From the IMG/VR virus record IMGVR_UViG_3300001533_000754, positions 1 to 32,028 of that record: 32,028 nt of DNA; one strand, 5' to 3'. The notes under the pieces are model-generated. The model searched no databases and had not been told where the DNA came from. It worked only from the letters and a program-made list of their open reading frames with translations. Origin of the DNA: a virus. A program made the position numbers and the translations under genes. Below, piece by piece: positions 3,135-32,028 of this stretch (the first letter of the stretch is position 1; each line of letters begins with the position of its first letter).

Positions 3135-3931
3135 TAGTAGCAATGATGTTATATAATGGTGAGCCATGGTTTGGCGAGTGTCTGATGTCGGTATATCAAC
3201 ACGTTGACAGGGTGGTGATAGGGTGCTCTAAAACAAAGCCTTCTATCCTGTCGAACAACTGGGAGATCGTTGAGTTCACGTGGGAAGATGATTACTCCAA
3301 GGCACGTAACCTGCTGATAAAGTTTGCCGAGACGAAGTGGGGGGCTGTTCACGATCACAAAAACCTGTGGCTCTATTGGATAGACCCTGATGAAATACTT
3401 ATTAGAGGCGAGTACCTAAGGCGTGCTATAGCTAATGAAGGATATCAGGCATACGAAATAGAGTATATGGTGCCGGGTCATGGGTTGCTCTATGATGGTG
3501 TTGTTGTTGAACGCCCTTGGATGCTGAGACTGTTCAAGGCAGGTATTGGTATTCGGTACGAAGGCAAGGTGCACGAGGAAGCAATTAGTACTATCGTAAG
3601 GAATAAGTATAAGATAGGCAGGGTGGCAAATGCGTATGTGTATCATCATGGATACGCCATCAGCAAGGACGATATGTACAGGAAGAACAAGATGTATGAG
3701 GCGAAGATACAAAAAGCTCTTGTCGTCGGTCTCCCCGATAACGAAAGGAGCAATCTGTGGTATCATTTAGGAAAGGAACAGTTATGTATGGGAAAGTTAG
3801 GCAGTGCTAAGAAATCTTTTGAGGAGTGCCTAAACTGCATGAATGAAGATAATTCGTTTGCAAAAGATAAAACAATTAAGTATATTAACGAAATAAAAGA
3901 AGGAAAGTATAATGCAATTAAAAGCGATTGA
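3131..3931 (+). CDS. Family 2 (GT-A) glycosyltransferase with TPR-like tail
   Basis: 266 residues. The N-terminal MIVAMMLYNGE and CLMSVYQHVDRVVIG give the opening Rossmann-like strands of GT2 enzymes. TWEDDYSKARN (residues 50-60) corresponds to the family's (F/W)xDDFSxARN motif, and WIDPDE (83-88) supplies the metal-binding DxD. The C-terminal part, LWYHLGKEQLCMGKLG followed by AKKSFEECL, is a tetratricopeptide-like helical pair, as in SunS-type and other enzymes that combine GT2 with TPR. It should transfer a sugar from a nucleotide sugar; the acceptor (phage protein, DNA or host surface) is unknown. It is coupled upstream by ATGA and overlaps the GroES-like gene by 20 nt. Confidence 0.85.
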   Translation: MIVAMMLYNGEPWFGECLMSVYQHVDRVVIGCSKTKPSILSNNWEIVEFTWEDDYSKARNLLIKFAETKWGAVHDHKNLWLYWIDPDEILIRGEYLRRAIANEGYQAYEIEYMVPGHGLLYDGVVVERPWMLRLFKAGIGIRYEGKVHEEAISTIVRNKYKIGRVANAYVYHHGYAISKDDMYRKNKMYEAKIQKALVVGLPDNERSNLWYHLGKEQLCMGKLGSAKKSFEECLNCMNEDNSFAKDKTIKYINEIKEGKYNAIKSD

Positions 3932-4901: not shown

Positions 4902-5093
4902 ATGAAGTCGAACAGATATGTAAAGATGGAAACAAGCATACAGGATGTGTTAGATGAGCTTGTAGAGGAAGTGTTTTTGTACAGGAACAAAACAGCATCG
5001 GAGCTAAAAGAGAAGTACGTGCCGGGCAGTACGGAAAGGTTGTTGCAAATCATGGGTAATTATATGCAGGAGTTGCTTAGTGGCAAGCAGTAA
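4902..5093 (+). CDS. Hypothetical helical protein, 63 aa
   Basis: A short acidic, helical protein (SIQDVLDELVEEVFLYRNK, then GSTERLLQIMGNYMQELL), without a recognised domain. AAAGGA precedes the ATG by about 7 nt. Its last codons overlap the GTG start of the DnaA-like gene by 14 nt, suggesting coupled translation. Confidence 0.65.
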   Translation: MKSNRYVKMETSIQDVLDELVEEVFLYRNKTASELKEKYVPGSTERLLQIMGNYMQELLSGKQ

Positions 5094-5646
5094 AGAGATA
5101 TTGGCGGCGGTAGCGTCTGTGTATGGCATAACAAAAGAGGAAATGCTCGGCATGTCGAGAAAGCGACCCTGCGTTGTAGCCAGACAGTGCTATTGTTATA
5201 TCCTCAACAGAACGCTTGGCTTTTCGCCACCTGAGATTGCAAAAGAAGTTGGTATGCACAGGACGACAGTGATATACAGCATAGATACGTATAGTCAGTT
5301 TATTAAGGTGTACCCAAAGGAAAGGGAAAGGGTGGCAAGGGTAAACAAGATGCTTAACGCCAAGGAAAGCCCTGACAGCACCAAGGACTATGTGGCGAAC
5401 GTATTGGTTGAAATAAAGGCAGTGGTAGTGGAAGGCAGGCAAAGCCAGATGTGTGAAAAGAACAGGGAAATATTTTCAAGTCTTATAGATCATGCCACAA
5501 AGTTAATTGAGGCACTGTGCAAAGACAAGGGCGACTGGATTGAATGGTGGCTCTATGAAGATGTTGAGAAGGTGGTGCATATAGACGGCAAACCTCGTGA
5601 CGTAGAAGACGTATATAGTTTTTTAGATTTTTTAAATAATAAGTAA
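5080..5646 (+). CDS. Orphan DnaA domain-IV-like DNA-binding protein
   Basis: 188 residues starting at GTG, with AGGAG 7 nt upstream. Residues about 5-70 resemble the C-terminal DNA-binding domain of DnaA: an LAAVASVYGITKEEML helix, RKRPCVVARQ (the basic loop and helix of domain IV) and GMHRTTVIYSI, matching the DnaA signature around RDHTTV. The AAA+ domain is absent, so it cannot act as a full initiator. Phages carry such orphan domains; they may bind DnaA-box-like DNA or regulate replication or transcription. The remaining ~115 residues are helical and unrecognised. It is immediately followed by the tRNA-like RNA at 5653. The arrays at 896-992 or 1426-1491 could be its targets, which is inference only. 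Confidence 0.8.
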   Translation: MASSKEILAAVASVYGITKEEMLGMSRKRPCVVARQCYCYILNRTLGFSPPEIAKEVGMHRTTVIYSIDTYSQFIKVYPKERERVARVNKMLNAKESPDSTKDYVANVLVEIKAVVVEGRQSQMCEKNREIFSSLIDHATKLIEALCKDKGDWIEWWLYEDVEKVVHIDGKPRDVEDVYSFLDFLNNK

Positions 5647-5652
5647 TCACAA

Positions 5653-5707
5653 TGGCAGTCGTTTCGGGTGATGTGGCGCCAGCAGGTTCGAGTCCTGCCG
5701 ACTGCCA
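5653..5707 (+). ncRNA. tRNA-like minihelix (acceptor plus T arm, no anticodon arm)
   Basis: GGCAGTCG (5654-5661) pairs with CGACTGCC (5699-5706), an 8-bp acceptor-like stem that T5653-A5707 can extend to 9. Directly stacked on it is a perfect T arm: GCAGG (5682-5686), the canonical seven-base T loop TTCGAGT (5687-5693) and CCTGC (5694-5698). The 20 nt between acceptor and T arm hold only a possible 4-bp hairpin (GGTG 5667-5670 with CGCC 5677-5680). There is no room for both D and anticodon arms, and the total is about 54 nt against about 75 for a tRNA. It lies exactly in the gap between two operon genes. It may be a processing signal for RNase P or RNase Z, a tRNA mimic, or a decayed tRNA or attachment site. 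Confidence 0.7.
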
Positions 5708-5729
5708 GTATTTATGAAAGGAAAACAAC

Positions 5730-6122
5730 ATGAGAGAGATTAAGTTTAGAGTTTGGGACTCACGTGACAACCAAATGGAACCTGTCTATGGTTTTGTCCA
5801 GTGCGACACACATGTCAAGATATTTATGAGCCAAGATGAAGAGGAATGGATAAGCGACTTAAAGGACAACCTTATTCTTATGCAAAGCACAGGTCTAAAA
5901 GACAGCAACAAGGTTGAGATATATGAGGGGGATATTGTCCGTGAAACACGCAGACCTCCAGCAAAAAATGAGCTATATACAGTAGAATATAGAGAGGAAG
6001 TTGGGGCATTCATGTTCAAAGATCAATATAATGACTATGATCCATATATCGACATGGGAGAGATAGAAAAGATTGGTAATATCTACGAGAACCCGGAACT
6101 AATCGAAAGGAAAGAGAAATGA
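5730..6122 (+). CDS. YopX-like phage protein
   Basis: 130 residues matching the YopX family: MREIKFRVWDSRDNQM at the start, LMQSTGLKDSNKVEIYEGDIV in the middle (the family's hallmark 'LMQyTGLkDknGkeIYEGDIv', residues about 51-71) and a C-terminal IGNIYENPELI. YopX proteins occur in phages and mobile elements of Firmicutes and Bacteroidetes; their function is unknown. A GAAAGGA site precedes the ATG. The last codons (IERKEK) carry the ribosome binding site of the next gene, and the junction is repeated 200 bp downstream. Confidence 0.9.
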   Translation: MREIKFRVWDSRDNQMEPVYGFVQCDTHVKIFMSQDEEEWISDLKDNLILMQSTGLKDSNKVEIYEGDIVRETRRPPAKNELYTVEYREEVGAFMFKDQYNDYDPYIDMGEIEKIGNIYENPELIERKEK

Positions 6123-13347: not shown

Positions 13348-13641
13348 ATGAAGTCAATCGGACAAATACAAGAGAAAGGACGACTTGCGGTAATAGCCGA
13401 AAATAGTCTGGAAGTACCGACACTTGAACAACAACAGCAAGTGTTAGATGCTTTATTGTACGATGGGTTATGTAAGATATACAACATCATGCAGACTGGT
13501 TCTTTCGATGAACAGATAAAATCATTTAATTCAATGATATCGCATTCAAGGCTCGTAGAACAGCGGAGAATGAATACAGCAGAAGAGGACCAGATGATAA
13601 TGGATGATCCTAACTTAGTGTTAGTAGAGCAAGATGAATAA
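13348..13641 (+). CDS. Possible small terminase subunit (by position), 97 aa
   Basis: 97 residues, helical and acidic toward the end. VPTLEQQQQVLDALLYDGL and FDEQIKSFNSMISHSRLVEQRR suggest helical packing, and the C-terminus is DDPNLVLVEQDE. It overlaps the start of TerL by 8 nt and is the first gene of the late operon, the usual place for the small terminase subunit, which recognises DNA for packaging. I see no convincing HTH and it is short for TerS, so the assignment rests on position only. Confidence 0.55.
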   Translation: MKSIGQIQEKGRLAVIAENSLEVPTLEQQQQVLDALLYDGLCKIYNIMQTGSFDEQIKSFNSMISHSRLVEQRRMNTAEEDQMIMDDPNLVLVEQDE

Positions 13642-16207
13642 AATATCAGACTATATAAGCTATGCAAGAAATCCTAAGCAGCAGAAAGCCTACCAATACG
13701 TAGGTAAGGGTAAGTTTATATTCTACGGAGGAGCGAGGGGCGGGGGTAAGCTAAGTCCTTTACATTCAAAGGTTTGCACGCCCAAGGGTTGGAAAAAAAT
13801 AGGAGAAATTAAAGTAGGAGATACTATATCTGATCCTGTTACGGGCGGAACCACGAAAGTCATTCAGATACATCCTCAGGGCAAAAAAGATATATATAAA
13901 GTAACATTTGATGATGGGGCAAGCTGTTTGGTCGGGTTAGAACATCTGTGGGCATATAAGCGACCAAACCATATAAGACCAAATACCAAAAAATCATCAG
14001 AACGAGAATATGCAGAAGAAAATCTCGGAGCAGAGATGCCACAAGATCAATGGTCGCACTATAGGATCGGGACAACAGAAGAACTTATCACTTTAGTAAG
14101 AGCAGGAGAGCGACCAAGAATACCGCTTACAAAACCAGTTATATATACAGTTAATGGAAGAACGGGCAAAGGTTTAGACCCTTATTTATGCGGATTGTTG
14201 CTTGGTGACGGGCACATAGATACTTACACAATAACAAATGAAGACAAAGAGATACGGGACTACCTGATATCGTTAGGATTTACGGAATACGGTAAGGATA
14301 GTGATAAATGCAATCAGTATCGTGCAGCGGGTGAAATACGCAAGTCCCTGCAAAACTGGGTGTATAACAATAAATTGGAGCACAGGCGGTCATGGGAAAA
14401 ATTTATACCCAAGTATGTACTTACCTCATCTTTGAAATATCGCACAGAGTTTGTACAAGGGTTGATGGACAGCGATGGCTATGTAGATGAGCGGGGTAGG
14501 TGCTATTATTGTACGACATCAGATGAATTAGCAAAAGGCGTTATAGATATTATTAGGAGTCTTGGTGGTAAAACGTATGACAGAATAAAATATCCCAAGT
14601 ACACACACAACGGAGAAAAGAAGGATGGTCGTCCTGCCCATGACATATTAATACAGCTTCCCAGGAGCAGTGCGTTGTTTAGGCTAAGCAGGAAGAAAGA
14701 TAGGTGCACTGACTCATGGAATGGCGGACACGAAATGATGCGTGCTATAGTATCAATAGAGTATCATAGCCATGAAGAAGCCCAATGTATCACTGTAAGC
14801 TCGCCCAACGGCTTATATATTACAGACGACTTTATCGTAACGCACAACAGCCATTTCGCTTTAACATCAGGCATTCTTGTTGCTATGCAGTTCCCCGGTA
14901 TCCGTGTAGTTATAATGCGTCGGCATTACAGTGAGCTAAACGAGCTGTTTATACAAAGACTCATGGAAAACTATCCAGAAGATATATTCGGATATAACTT
15001 TAGGAAACAGGATCGCACGGCGTATTTCCAAAACAAATCAAAAATTATATTTAGAGCAGCAGAAAGAGATACCGACGTACAGAAAGTACAGGGTCTGGAA
15101 TATCAATACATGATCGTGGACGAAGCCAATCAGTTTTATCCCGAACAATTAGAGATGTTGCTCGGCTCGCTGCGTAATGCAGGCATTAAAAACTTTACAT
15201 CTACATTCCTTATGACGGGAAACCCCGGTGGGTTCTCAGACGTATGGTTTAAAACACACTTCATAACGCCAGACTATAAGTACTGGACAAAGAACTCCCT
15301 AAAGAATAAACACAAATACATATTTATACCAGCCAGTGTTTACGACAATCCTTATATAGAAGAAGACTATATAGATAACCTGAAAGGCATGGGTGAAGAT
15401 CGTAAACGGGCATGGCTTGATGGTGATTGGAATGTGTTTACAGGGCAGTATTTTAGCGAGTGGAATGAAGAAAAGCACGTGGTAAAACCCTTTGAAATAC
15501 CAAAGCACTGGAGGACAGTAGGCGGGCTTGATCTTGGTTTTAGCAAGGAACATCCGACAGTATTCCTGCTTTCTGCGCAAGACCCGGATACAGGGAGGTT
15601 GTATATCACTGACGAGTACGTTGATTATGGTGTTCTCGAGCAATATGTACGAGGCATAGGCGGGATGCTTGGAGACAAAATAGACCAGGTTAGAGAGATA
15701 TATGCCGACCCTTCTATGTGGGGCGCTTCGGGCAGAGCGAAAGAAAACGAGCAGACATCAGAACAAATATTTACAGTCGGTGGGCTGCCGCTTCTTAAAG
15801 CTAACAATAAAAGGGTGGAAGGATGGCGGATATTGAAACAGTGGTTACACTGGGACAAACGAAGGCAGGTGCCCTTCTTGCAGGTTTTTGAAAACTGTCG
15901 CACATTAATAGACACGTTGCCGCTTAACAAATACAACAATCACAACATGGTCAACATAGAAGACCTCGACACAAGAGGACCTGACGATGCGGTAGATGCT
16001 TTGAGATATATAGTGGCGAGTGCTTTTGGTTACCCATTGAATTCGATACGGCATGTGGACATAGATATACCCGAACAACACTCAGGTATAGACTACGAAG
16101 CGATGTACGATACTAATTACGAGACAGAAAAGAAATATGAAGACAATGGGATAATAGAAATAAGAGGAAGACAATTTAATAGGTACCACACATTTGCGGT
16201 GTATTGA
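13634..16207 (+). CDS. terL: Terminase large subunit, interrupted by an intein
   Basis: An 857-residue precursor; without the 366-residue intein it is 491 residues, normal for TerL. The ATPase domain has Walker A GGARGGGK (32-39) completed by S406 after splicing, Walker B MIVDE (493-497) and coupling motif LMTGNP (526-531). The nuclease domain shows GGLDLGF (D633), YADPS (D692) and DDAVDALRY (D784-D788), the acidic residues of the RNase H-like fold. It powers DNA packaging through the portal and cuts concatemers. The intein splits the P-loop between Lys39 and Ser406, so packaging ATPase activity should need splicing. It overlaps the upstream gene by 8 nt and is followed 1 nt later by the portal. 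Confidence 0.95.
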   Translation: MNKISDYISYARNPKQQKAYQYVGKGKFIFYGGARGGGKLSPLHSKVCTPKGWKKIGEIKVGDTISDPVTGGTTKVIQIHPQGKKDIYKVTFDDGASCLVGLEHLWAYKRPNHIRPNTKKSSEREYAEENLGAEMPQDQWSHYRIGTTEELITLVRAGERPRIPLTKPVIYTVNGRTGKGLDPYLCGLLLGDGHIDTYTITNEDKEIRDYLISLGFTEYGKDSDKCNQYRAAGEIRKSLQNWVYNNKLEHRRSWEKFIPKYVLTSSLKYRTEFVQGLMDSDGYVDERGRCYYCTTSDELAKGVIDIIRSLGGKTYDRIKYPKYTHNGEKKDGRPAHDILIQLPRSSALFRLSRKKDRCTDSWNGGHEMMRAIVSIEYHSHEEAQCITVSSPNGLYITDDFIVTHNSHFALTSGILVAMQFPGIRVVIMRRHYSELNELFIQRLMENYPEDIFGYNFRKQDRTAYFQNKSKIIFRAAERDTDVQKVQGLEYQYMIVDEANQFYPEQLEMLLGSLRNAGIKNFTSTFLMTGNPGGFSDVWFKTHFITPDYKYWTKNSLKNKHKYIFIPASVYDNPYIEEDYIDNLKGMGEDRKRAWLDGDWNVFTGQYFSEWNEEKHVVKPFEIPKHWRTVGGLDLGFSKEHPTVFLLSAQDPDTGRLYITDEYVDYGVLEQYVRGIGGMLGDKIDQVREIYADPSMWGASGRAKENEQTSEQIFTVGGLPLLKANNKRVEGWRILKQWLHWDKRRQVPFLQVFENCRTLIDTLPLNKYNNHNMVNIEDLDTRGPDDAVDALRYIVASAFGYPLNSIRHVDIDIPEQHSGIDYEAMYDTNYETEKKYEDNGIIEIRGRQFNRYHTFAVY
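13751..14848 (+). other. TerL intein with LAGLIDADG homing endonuclease, class-3-like
   Basis: TerL residues 40-405 (366 residues). Block A begins LSPLHSKV, with Leu where standard inteins have Cys or Ser. Block B is GLEHLW (His104, Trp106). Two LAGLIDADG motifs are LCGLLLGDG (185-193) and FVQGLMDSDG (273-282). Block F is CITV (Cys385). Block G is FIVTHN, with Asn405 before Ser406. Trp at B:12, Cys at F:4 and a hydroxyl +1 residue are the marks of class 3 inteins, in which the F-block Cys replaces residue 1 as nucleophile. The +1 residue is Ser rather than Thr. The insertion point is the Walker A Lys/Ser junction of TerL. Confidence 0.93.
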
Positions 16208-30981: not shown

Positions 30982-32028
30982 ATGAGTTTAAATTTGCCAT
31001 TTGTCAGCGGAATACTCGGATACGGGTTCTCGGGATATTCGGGCTATTCAGGAATGGGCGGAGATAGCACATCTGGTTATAGTGGTTATTCAGGTATTAG
31101 CGGTTACAGTGGGATATCTGGCTATTCCGGTATGTCTGGTTATGGCGGCATGTCAGGATATTCAGGATCGGGAGAATCAGGTTATTCTGGCTACTCCGGT
31201 TATTCGGGACATAGCGGTTATTCTGGCTATTCAGGATGGTCTGGCACAAGTGGCTATTCGGGTTCTGGTGTATCTGGATATAGCGGTCTCGGCTTTAGTG
31301 GCTATAGCGGCTTTAGTGGCTATTCAGGAATATCGGGGTACAGCGGTTATAGCGGGATCAGTGGCTGGTCGGGTATATCAGGTTACAGTGGCGAAGGGAT
31401 AGTGAGTGTTGACGATACTCCTGTAGATGGTGCTACCACAGTACCTATAAGTTCAAACTGGGCGTATGACCACATTAACGATGCCGATGTTCATACGGCT
31501 GGGAACATTACAAATGTGCCTGCTGGGGATATTGCAGCAACTGATGTGCAGGCAGCTTTGAATGAGCTTGATACTGATAAACTCAATATCGCAGACATAG
31601 ACGACAGCCCTGTAGATGGAGTAACCGATGCTCCGATAAGTTCAAATTGGGCGTATGACAAGGTCGTTAGCGATGCTTTAGAGTGGCAACGATTCAAAGG
31701 CATTGACTTAACACCGAATCAGCTTCAATATATGTATAATCATAATACGAAGCTGATAGCGACTTGTGAAGCCGATGAGGCGTGGACTGATGGAAATTAT
31801 ATAGGTACATATGTTGCAACACATGGAGACGATACAGTTAATTATAAAGTAGGAACGCAAGGGATAAGCATTACTACAACATCTACTACATATAGGGCTA
31901 TTCATCTTGAAATATCAAAAGACTTGAGCGAGTTTGAAGACGGTAGTGAAAGCACTGTTGATGACTATATTGAGTTTAGTATATATTGTGCGGATGCTTC
32001 AAAAGTAACCAATTCAAATATTGTATTC
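30982..32028 (+). CDS. Tail fibre-like protein with Gly-Tyr-Ser repeats (3' end outside window)
   Basis: ATG 30982 follows AAAGGGAG and the frame is open for 349 codons to the window edge. Residues about 13-138 are Gly-X-Ser triplets, X mostly Tyr, Ile, Phe, Trp or Met, with few breaks and no proline. Then two related segments occur about 57 residues apart: DDTPVDGATTVPISSNWAYD and DDSPVDGVTDAPISSNWAYD. Between them is ATDVQAALNELDT, a motif common in phage tail fibres. Collagen-like and fibre repeats fit a host-recognition appendage. The absence of proline argues against a standard collagen helix. The adsorption domain would lie beyond the window. Confidence 0.85.
   Translation, partial: MSLNLPFVSGILGYGFSGYSGYSGMGGDSTSGYSGYSGISGYSGISGYSGMSGYGGMSGYSGSGESGYSGYSGYSGHSGYSGYSGWSGTSGYSGSGVSGYSGLGFSGYSGFSGYSGISGYSGYSGISGWSGISGYSGEGIVSVDDTPVDGATTVPISSNWAYDHINDADVHTAGNITNVPAGDIAATDVQAALNELDTDKLNIADIDDSPVDGVTDAPISSNWAYDKVVSDALEWQRFKGIDLTPNQLQYMYNHNTKLIATCEADEAWTDGNYIGTYVATHGDDTVNYKVGTQGISITTTSTTYRAIHLEISKDLSEFEDGSESTVDDYIEFSIYCADASKVTNSNIVF
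31018..31398 (+). repeat. Gly-Tyr-Ser coding repeat array
   Basis: About forty nine-base units of GGN-TAY-(AGY/TCN) type inside the tail-fibre gene. The codons vary between copies (Ser as AGC, AGT, TCA, TCC, TCG or TCT; Gly as GGA, GGC, GGG or GGT), so the protein repeat is conserved while the DNA is diversified. Frames other than the coding one remain open in places and give spurious hydrophobic ORFs. Confidence 0.9.

Follow-up and report, generated by a model that had tools for sequence, protein, structure and literature searches.

Folding and comparison with randomized sequence confirmed a genuine tRNA-like structure of only 55 bases that separates two early genes in an uncultivated phage, at positions 5653–5707 of the window (the whole 32,028-nt stretch of IMG/VR record IMGVR_UViG_3300001533_000754 analysed here). 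As a tentative explanation, to which we assign a probability of about 0.4, we favour an element descended from a tRNA, with tRNA-His as best guess, which retains an acceptor helix, a T arm and a stunted third arm and is cut within an early polycistronic transcript. The original prediction, made from the bare sequence, had placed a tRNA-like minihelix between a DnaA-like and a YopX gene; this placement is supported, and the interpretation attached to it is supported in part.

Architecture of the element

Read from 5′ to 3′, the element is laid out as TGGCAGTCG-TTTCG-GGTG-ATGTGG-CGCC-A-GCAGG-TTCGAGT-CCTGC-CGACTGCCA (Table 1). Its two acceptor-like strands form nine of nine Watson-Crick pairs, which the 5-bp T stem brings to 14. 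As no nucleotide interrupts the 3′ strand between T stem and acceptor, both helices can stack as one 14-bp rod. On the 5′ side, 20 nt (5662–5681) separate the acceptor strand from the T arm. The acceptor-like stem stacked on a T stem with TTCGAGT loop and the 20-nt spacing had both been predicted and are borne out. The accompanying claim that no full cloverleaf fits the gap also stands, yet part of the gap does fold: a third arm of 4 bp had been missed (pair probability up to 0.92). This arm may correspond to an anticodon arm (U-GUG-G) or a D arm (GG in the loop) in stunted form, or to a variable arm, and it is weak, since a 4-bp hairpin is possible in 73% of composition-matched shuffles of its 20 nt. 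At tRNA position 48, usually a pyrimidine, the element has an A.

Table 1. Positions of the element's parts, the overlapping open frame and the flanking genes in the window
Feature	Position	Strand	Basis or remark
Upstream gene, 188 aa, DnaA C-terminal (DnaA-box binding) domain	5080..5646	+	Pfam PF08299 Bac_DnaA_C, E 2.2e-15
21-codon open frame across element (MAVVSGDVAPAGSSPADCQYL, then stop)	5652..5717	+	translation
Acceptor-like stem, 5′ strand TGGCAGTCG	5653..5661	+	register U-2, G-1, G1-C2-A3-G4-U5-C6-G7
Linker UUUCG, replacing positions 8-9 and/or D arm	5662..5666	+	unpaired in minimum-energy fold
Third arm GGUG-AUGUGG-CGCC, 4 bp, 6-nt loop	5667..5680	+	pair probability 0.91-0.92
Lone unpaired A at third arm/T stem boundary	5681..5681	+	fold
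T arm GCAGG-TTCGAGT-CCTGC, canonical 5-bp stem, 7-nt loop	5682..5698	+	sequence, fold
Acceptor-like stem, 3′ strand CGACTGCCA (66-72, C73, A74)	5699..5707	+	unpaired CCA not encoded
Downstream gene, 130 aa, YopX family	5730..6122	+	Pfam PF09643, E 8.4e-24

Secondary-structure prediction, named earlier as a check, came out in favour of the proposed helices: RNA folding gave –27.2 kcal/mol (z = –2.6), and the same fold was obtained in 81, 241 and 561 nt of context, with pair probabilities of at least 0.83 that stayed nearly constant in the two longer contexts. A pattern scan of the window (5-bp T arm, TTCRANN loop, acceptor of at least 5 bp, gap of 4–59 nt) returned the element as its sole match. 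Among 300 dinucleotide-shuffled windows, one match with at least nine acceptor pairs was seen (G-U allowed, gaps of 4–59 nt). When only Watson-Crick pairs and T arms of the form GGTTCRANNCC were accepted, a null in which upstream segments were set against foreign acceptor strands led to an expectation of 0.05 9-bp runs per 219 T arms (~2 in 10,000 per arm).

The strength and stability of the helix, together with a suitable position between cistrons, would also fit a plain intergenic RNA hairpin that protects an mRNA end, couples translation or serves as an RNase III-type site, its likeness to a T loop being accidental. We consider this improbable, as a canonical T stem-loop stacked directly on an acceptor is not expected by chance and the element is followed by neither a T run nor a called terminator-like site. 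The 21-codon frame spanning the element is probably fortuitous; we set it aside as a leader peptide, because GC-rich helices are often stop-free and no further sign of coding was found. A short frame, read from the sequence, likewise spans an element in another phage locus (L062).

Genomic context and the case for processing

Pfam confirmed that the element is flanked by a DnaA-like and a YopX-like gene, as had been proposed, and AAAGGAAAA lies directly 5′ of the YopX gene start. The 83-nt gap between the two genes is the widest between adjacent genes from 2.1 to 12.9 kb, a region in which most neighbours overlap or sit at most 15 nt apart. It is composed of 6 nt, the element, and 22 nt containing the ribosome-binding region. 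No Bacteroidota-type promoter was found in the window, nor a promoter or terminator specific to the element.

In our preferred scenario, the element would fold co-transcriptionally within the dnaA-like/yopX mRNA, where host RNase P, perhaps along with RNase Z, would recognize the stacked acceptor–T helix and cut at its borders. Cleavage would separate the two cistrons, leaving the yopX message with a 5′ end ~22 nt upstream of its start codon, and free a small RNA of ~53–55 nt. Processing by these enzymes, or tRNA mimicry, is structurally plausible. Minihelices that consist of acceptor and T stems alone are textbook laboratory substrates of RNase P and of some synthetases. Processing is favoured by the 14 uninterrupted Watson-Crick pairs, the canonical T loop, and a fold that is robust to context and beyond chance; by the best Rfam match of the window falling in the tRNA clan; and by the element and the ~22 nt behind it accounting for nearly the whole gap. 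RNase P moreover has polycistronic mRNAs and phage RNAs among its established substrates (review PMC11143913), and a comparable 8-bp minihelix at L062:710–757 fills the gap between two co-directional genes, much like the element studied here. Against processing stand the missing encoded CCA and the absence of D-loop G18-G19 from its canonical position, given that work on the mammalian tRNA-like mascRNA stresses the elbow for recognition by RNase P and RNase Z (PMC11693755). Placement between operon genes on both sides is not special either, being shared by 21 of 126 isolated full phage tRNAs.

Relatives argue against processing as well, since no homologue of the element was found. Searches of viral_contigs with the DnaA-like protein, the portal, the capsid and their alignments identified L125 as the only close relative (portal 69%, capsid 85% identical). 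At its syntenic junction, the DnaA_C gene is overlapped by the next gene, and neither the element nor YopX follows; a YopX search of genome_contigs returned nothing. An exact-pattern search with the full element and BLAST against phages found no copy, and plasmid BLAST gave only short part-matches of ~25 bases. As the search set may omit records very near the window, the absence of close kin is no evidence on the phage's own clade.

The original prediction had also suggested looking for a host tRNA that shares the element's 3′ end. An exact search with the 22-nt 3′ end found no match, either among 2.9 million viral contigs or in 84,980 genomes of bacteria and archaea. Integrating phages commonly leave partial tRNA genes behind (PMC9897764), and the element might be an attP-type site for integration, copied from the 3′ end of a host tRNA. 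This origin is highly improbable in view of the failed 3′-end search, the plasmid matches being only partial, a 20-nt middle unlike a tRNA body, and no integrase family among the window proteins tested.

The phage gene set comprises terminase, portal (PHROG 156), primase/helicase, SSB, GroES-like and PAPS-reductase-like genes. Three further features of the window were recorded. The terminase large subunit (13634–16207) carries an intein-like insert of ~367 aa in its Walker A motif (residues 39–405), which is missing in the L125 homologue. Non-coding sequence preceding the SSB gene (918–989) contains three tandem 24-bp copies (ATCAGNCAAATAAATGTTTATGCC) that resemble iterons and are a possible replication origin, in a phage that also carries a DnaA_C protein. 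Lastly, repeats at 31000–31400 code for a Gly-Tyr-Ser-rich (SGYSGYSG-like) tract after a 1746-aa tail-region protein.

Possible tRNA identity and parentage

Standard tRNA detection did not call the element: ARAGORN reported no tRNA genes in the window, its mitochondrial mode, which covers the D-armless metazoan-mitochondrial type, made no call at the element at default threshold, and an Rfam scan at gathering scores gave no match in the window. Of the features of a tRNA, the acceptor stem stacked on a T arm with TTCRA loop is present; a D arm and a 5-bp anticodon arm with 7-nt loop are absent, the 20-nt gap holding one 4-bp arm with a 6-nt loop. The top Rfam match of the window, and the only one with an E-value below 1, was to tRNA-Sec (RF01852, tRNA clan) at a sub-threshold 26 bits (gathering score 47; E = 0.0023 on 201 bases, 0.37 on the whole window). 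The alignment puts the third arm at the position of the variable arm and lacks the UCA anticodon arm. The mascRNA-menRNA family scored 13 bits, below the 42.5 required.

If the acceptor is read as 7 bp long, the next pair outward is G-1:C73 (5654 G : 5706 C). Among 756 tRNAs from the fetched phage loci, this pair was present in 9 of 17 tRNA-His genes and in none of the 739 others. Only after His had been named from it was the third-arm loop inspected for an anticodon: AUGUGG contains U33-GUG-G37, the His anticodon in its usual setting, although 2.2% of shuffled middles also form a hairpin with a UGUG-plus-purine loop. Pair and loop together make tRNA-His the best guess for a parent. The His hallmark depends on the register, since with an 8-bp acceptor the same pair becomes an ordinary G1-C72 and the acceptor–T length that of tRNA-Sec.

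These features bear on two further readings. In the first, almost as likely as processing, the element is a non-functional relic of a phage tRNA gene from which deletion removed the D and anticodon arms, while the acceptor and T stems still persist. The signs of a tRNA-His parent are what such a relic would display, and the element is known in one lineage only, L125 being without it. Moreover, other phage loci (L219, L060, L194 and L236) contain tRNA-derived elements in which the middle is shortened and the acceptor stem intact. The original prediction had argued that a remnant would lose its acceptor complementarity; the first three of these loci contradict this, and because remnants can retain intact acceptor pairing, the argument from pairing to function fails. 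The middle of the element speaks differently. Compared with the sampled phage tRNA bodies it matched at best 11 of 20 positions, no better than shuffles (null mean 12.7), whereas the middles in L060, L194, L207, L219 and L236 clearly match tRNA bodies. A recent one-step deletion of a recognizable tRNA is thus not supported, and yet none of the 14 pairs is broken. Nor would an operon with overlapping genes be likely to keep a useless insert of 55 nt.

The second reading, a working tRNA mimic, would be a D-armless His-type acceptor that is processed, CCA-tailed and charged by HisRS, to act as a decoy, a signal or even an adaptor. Its length of ~55 nt is within the size range of D-armless mitochondrial tRNAs, and the U-GUG-G loop sits in the third arm. 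With the G-1:C73 pair, seven acceptor pairs and five T-stem pairs, it also has the geometry of the 13-bp minihelix that HisRS efficiently charges (PMC9976931). We nevertheless hold such a mimic to be quite unlikely: the outer pair is a His hallmark in one register only, the third arm (4 bp, 6-nt loop) lacks significance of its own, the mitochondrial mode of ARAGORN passed the element over, and CCA is not encoded. The case for charging consists of these identity-like features.

Comparable elements in phages and known systems

T-arm pattern scans of phage loci yielded a set of comparators, some of which are ordinary tRNAs, tRNA 3′ halves or chance 7-bp matches; chance accounts for a share of the 7-bp cases. 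The elements in L060, L071, L092, L194 and L236 are tRNA-like, with a recognizable D arm and no normal anticodon arm. Together with those in L173 and L207, they share with the window element the acceptor and T arm and the lack of a normal anticodon arm. They differ in that they keep a recognizable D arm and mostly tRNA body sequence, neither of which the window element keeps. A literature search found no paper on anticodon-less phage tRNA-like elements.

Several of these comparators merit description in their own right. L173:14053–14125 (–) and L207:5719–5808 (+) possess a 19-bp extended acceptor helix (TATARTAAAGCACATT.../...AGTGTGCTTTAYTATA) with D-like and T arms and no anticodon arm. Both border large tRNA arrays (27 and 8 tRNAs, respectively), a sigma-70-like promoter precedes the one in L207, and their stem differences mostly preserve pairing; this looks like a conserved, unnamed phage RNA. 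The 57-nt elements at L060:1945–2001 (–), L071:1932–1988 and L092:3824–3880 (–), from G+C-rich, probably actinobacterial phages, have D and T arms, no anticodon arm and a hairpin directly upstream of each, and in two of the three a gene start with AAGGAGG follows 19 nt downstream. The lack of a normal anticodon arm is shared by other tRNA-like elements, at L194:6096–6161, L236:5182–5241 (–), L146:313–365 (–), L235:4122–4183 (with a strong 10-bp hairpin in the gap, z = –5.4) and L053:2802–2865 (surrounded by an outer helix). At L123:6850–7008, a tRNA-like D arm and T arm are split by extra sequence (GGTCCCTTAGCTCAGTTGG... then TAGGGAAG...CTTCCCTA), an arrangement that resembles an interrupted or duplicated tRNA. 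L207, an IMG/VR viral contig, additionally encodes a permuted tmRNA (3240–3518, +; Rfam RF04321, 73 bits).

More widely, phage genomes contain a group of tRNA-like elements that have no anticodon arm and escape tRNA finders. As a kind, tRNA-like elements in phages are already known. A natural minihelix in a phage operon would, if true, mean that host tRNA-processing enzymes serve phages in cutting phage mRNAs, and would indicate the minimal size of a tRNA-like signal in living cells. The most far-reaching version, in which the element is a natural, maintained miniature tRNA-like phage RNA (a 13–14 bp minihelix with a His identity pair and a stunted third arm), excised from mRNA by tRNA-processing enzymes and maybe charged with histidine, as a counterpart of mascRNA and viral tRNA-like structures, we regard as doubtful.

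Among known systems, T4 species 1 RNA (rnaC), a stable phage RNA of unknown function, is similar in being phage-coded and in joining a canonical T arm (CCGGG-TTCGAAT-CCCGG) to an imperfect acceptor-like stem around a non-cloverleaf middle. Compared by anatomy only, rnaC differs in its length of 139 nt, its long folded middle, its location within a tRNA cluster and its acceptor with ~5 of 7 pairs (our own reading), whereas the window element is 55 nt long, isolated and perfectly paired. T4 rnaD was inspected as well and has no T arm. With tRNA-Sec, the element shares an 8-bp acceptor on a 5-bp T stem and a third arm aligning with the long variable arm; it differs in having no D arm and no UCA anticodon arm, in line with the score of 26 against 47 bits. 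The model RNase P substrates pATSer and MD1 consist of stacked acceptor and T stems of 12–14 bp, the rest of the tRNA being absent (PMC11221534). Both were made in the laboratory, and MD1 encodes a 3′ GCCA, whereas the window element is natural, has a 20-nt insertion and lacks a free CCA. The mammalian tRNA-like mascRNA and menRNA are cut from long RNAs by RNase P and RNase Z (PMC11693755). Unlike the element, mascRNA has kept a D arm, in reduced form and with two guanosines, together with a modified anticodon-equivalent stem. It likewise presents a tRNA-like acceptor and T stem-loop inside a longer transcript, and sets a precedent for a tRNA-like fold being usable as a processing signal there, the same mechanism as we propose for the phage element.
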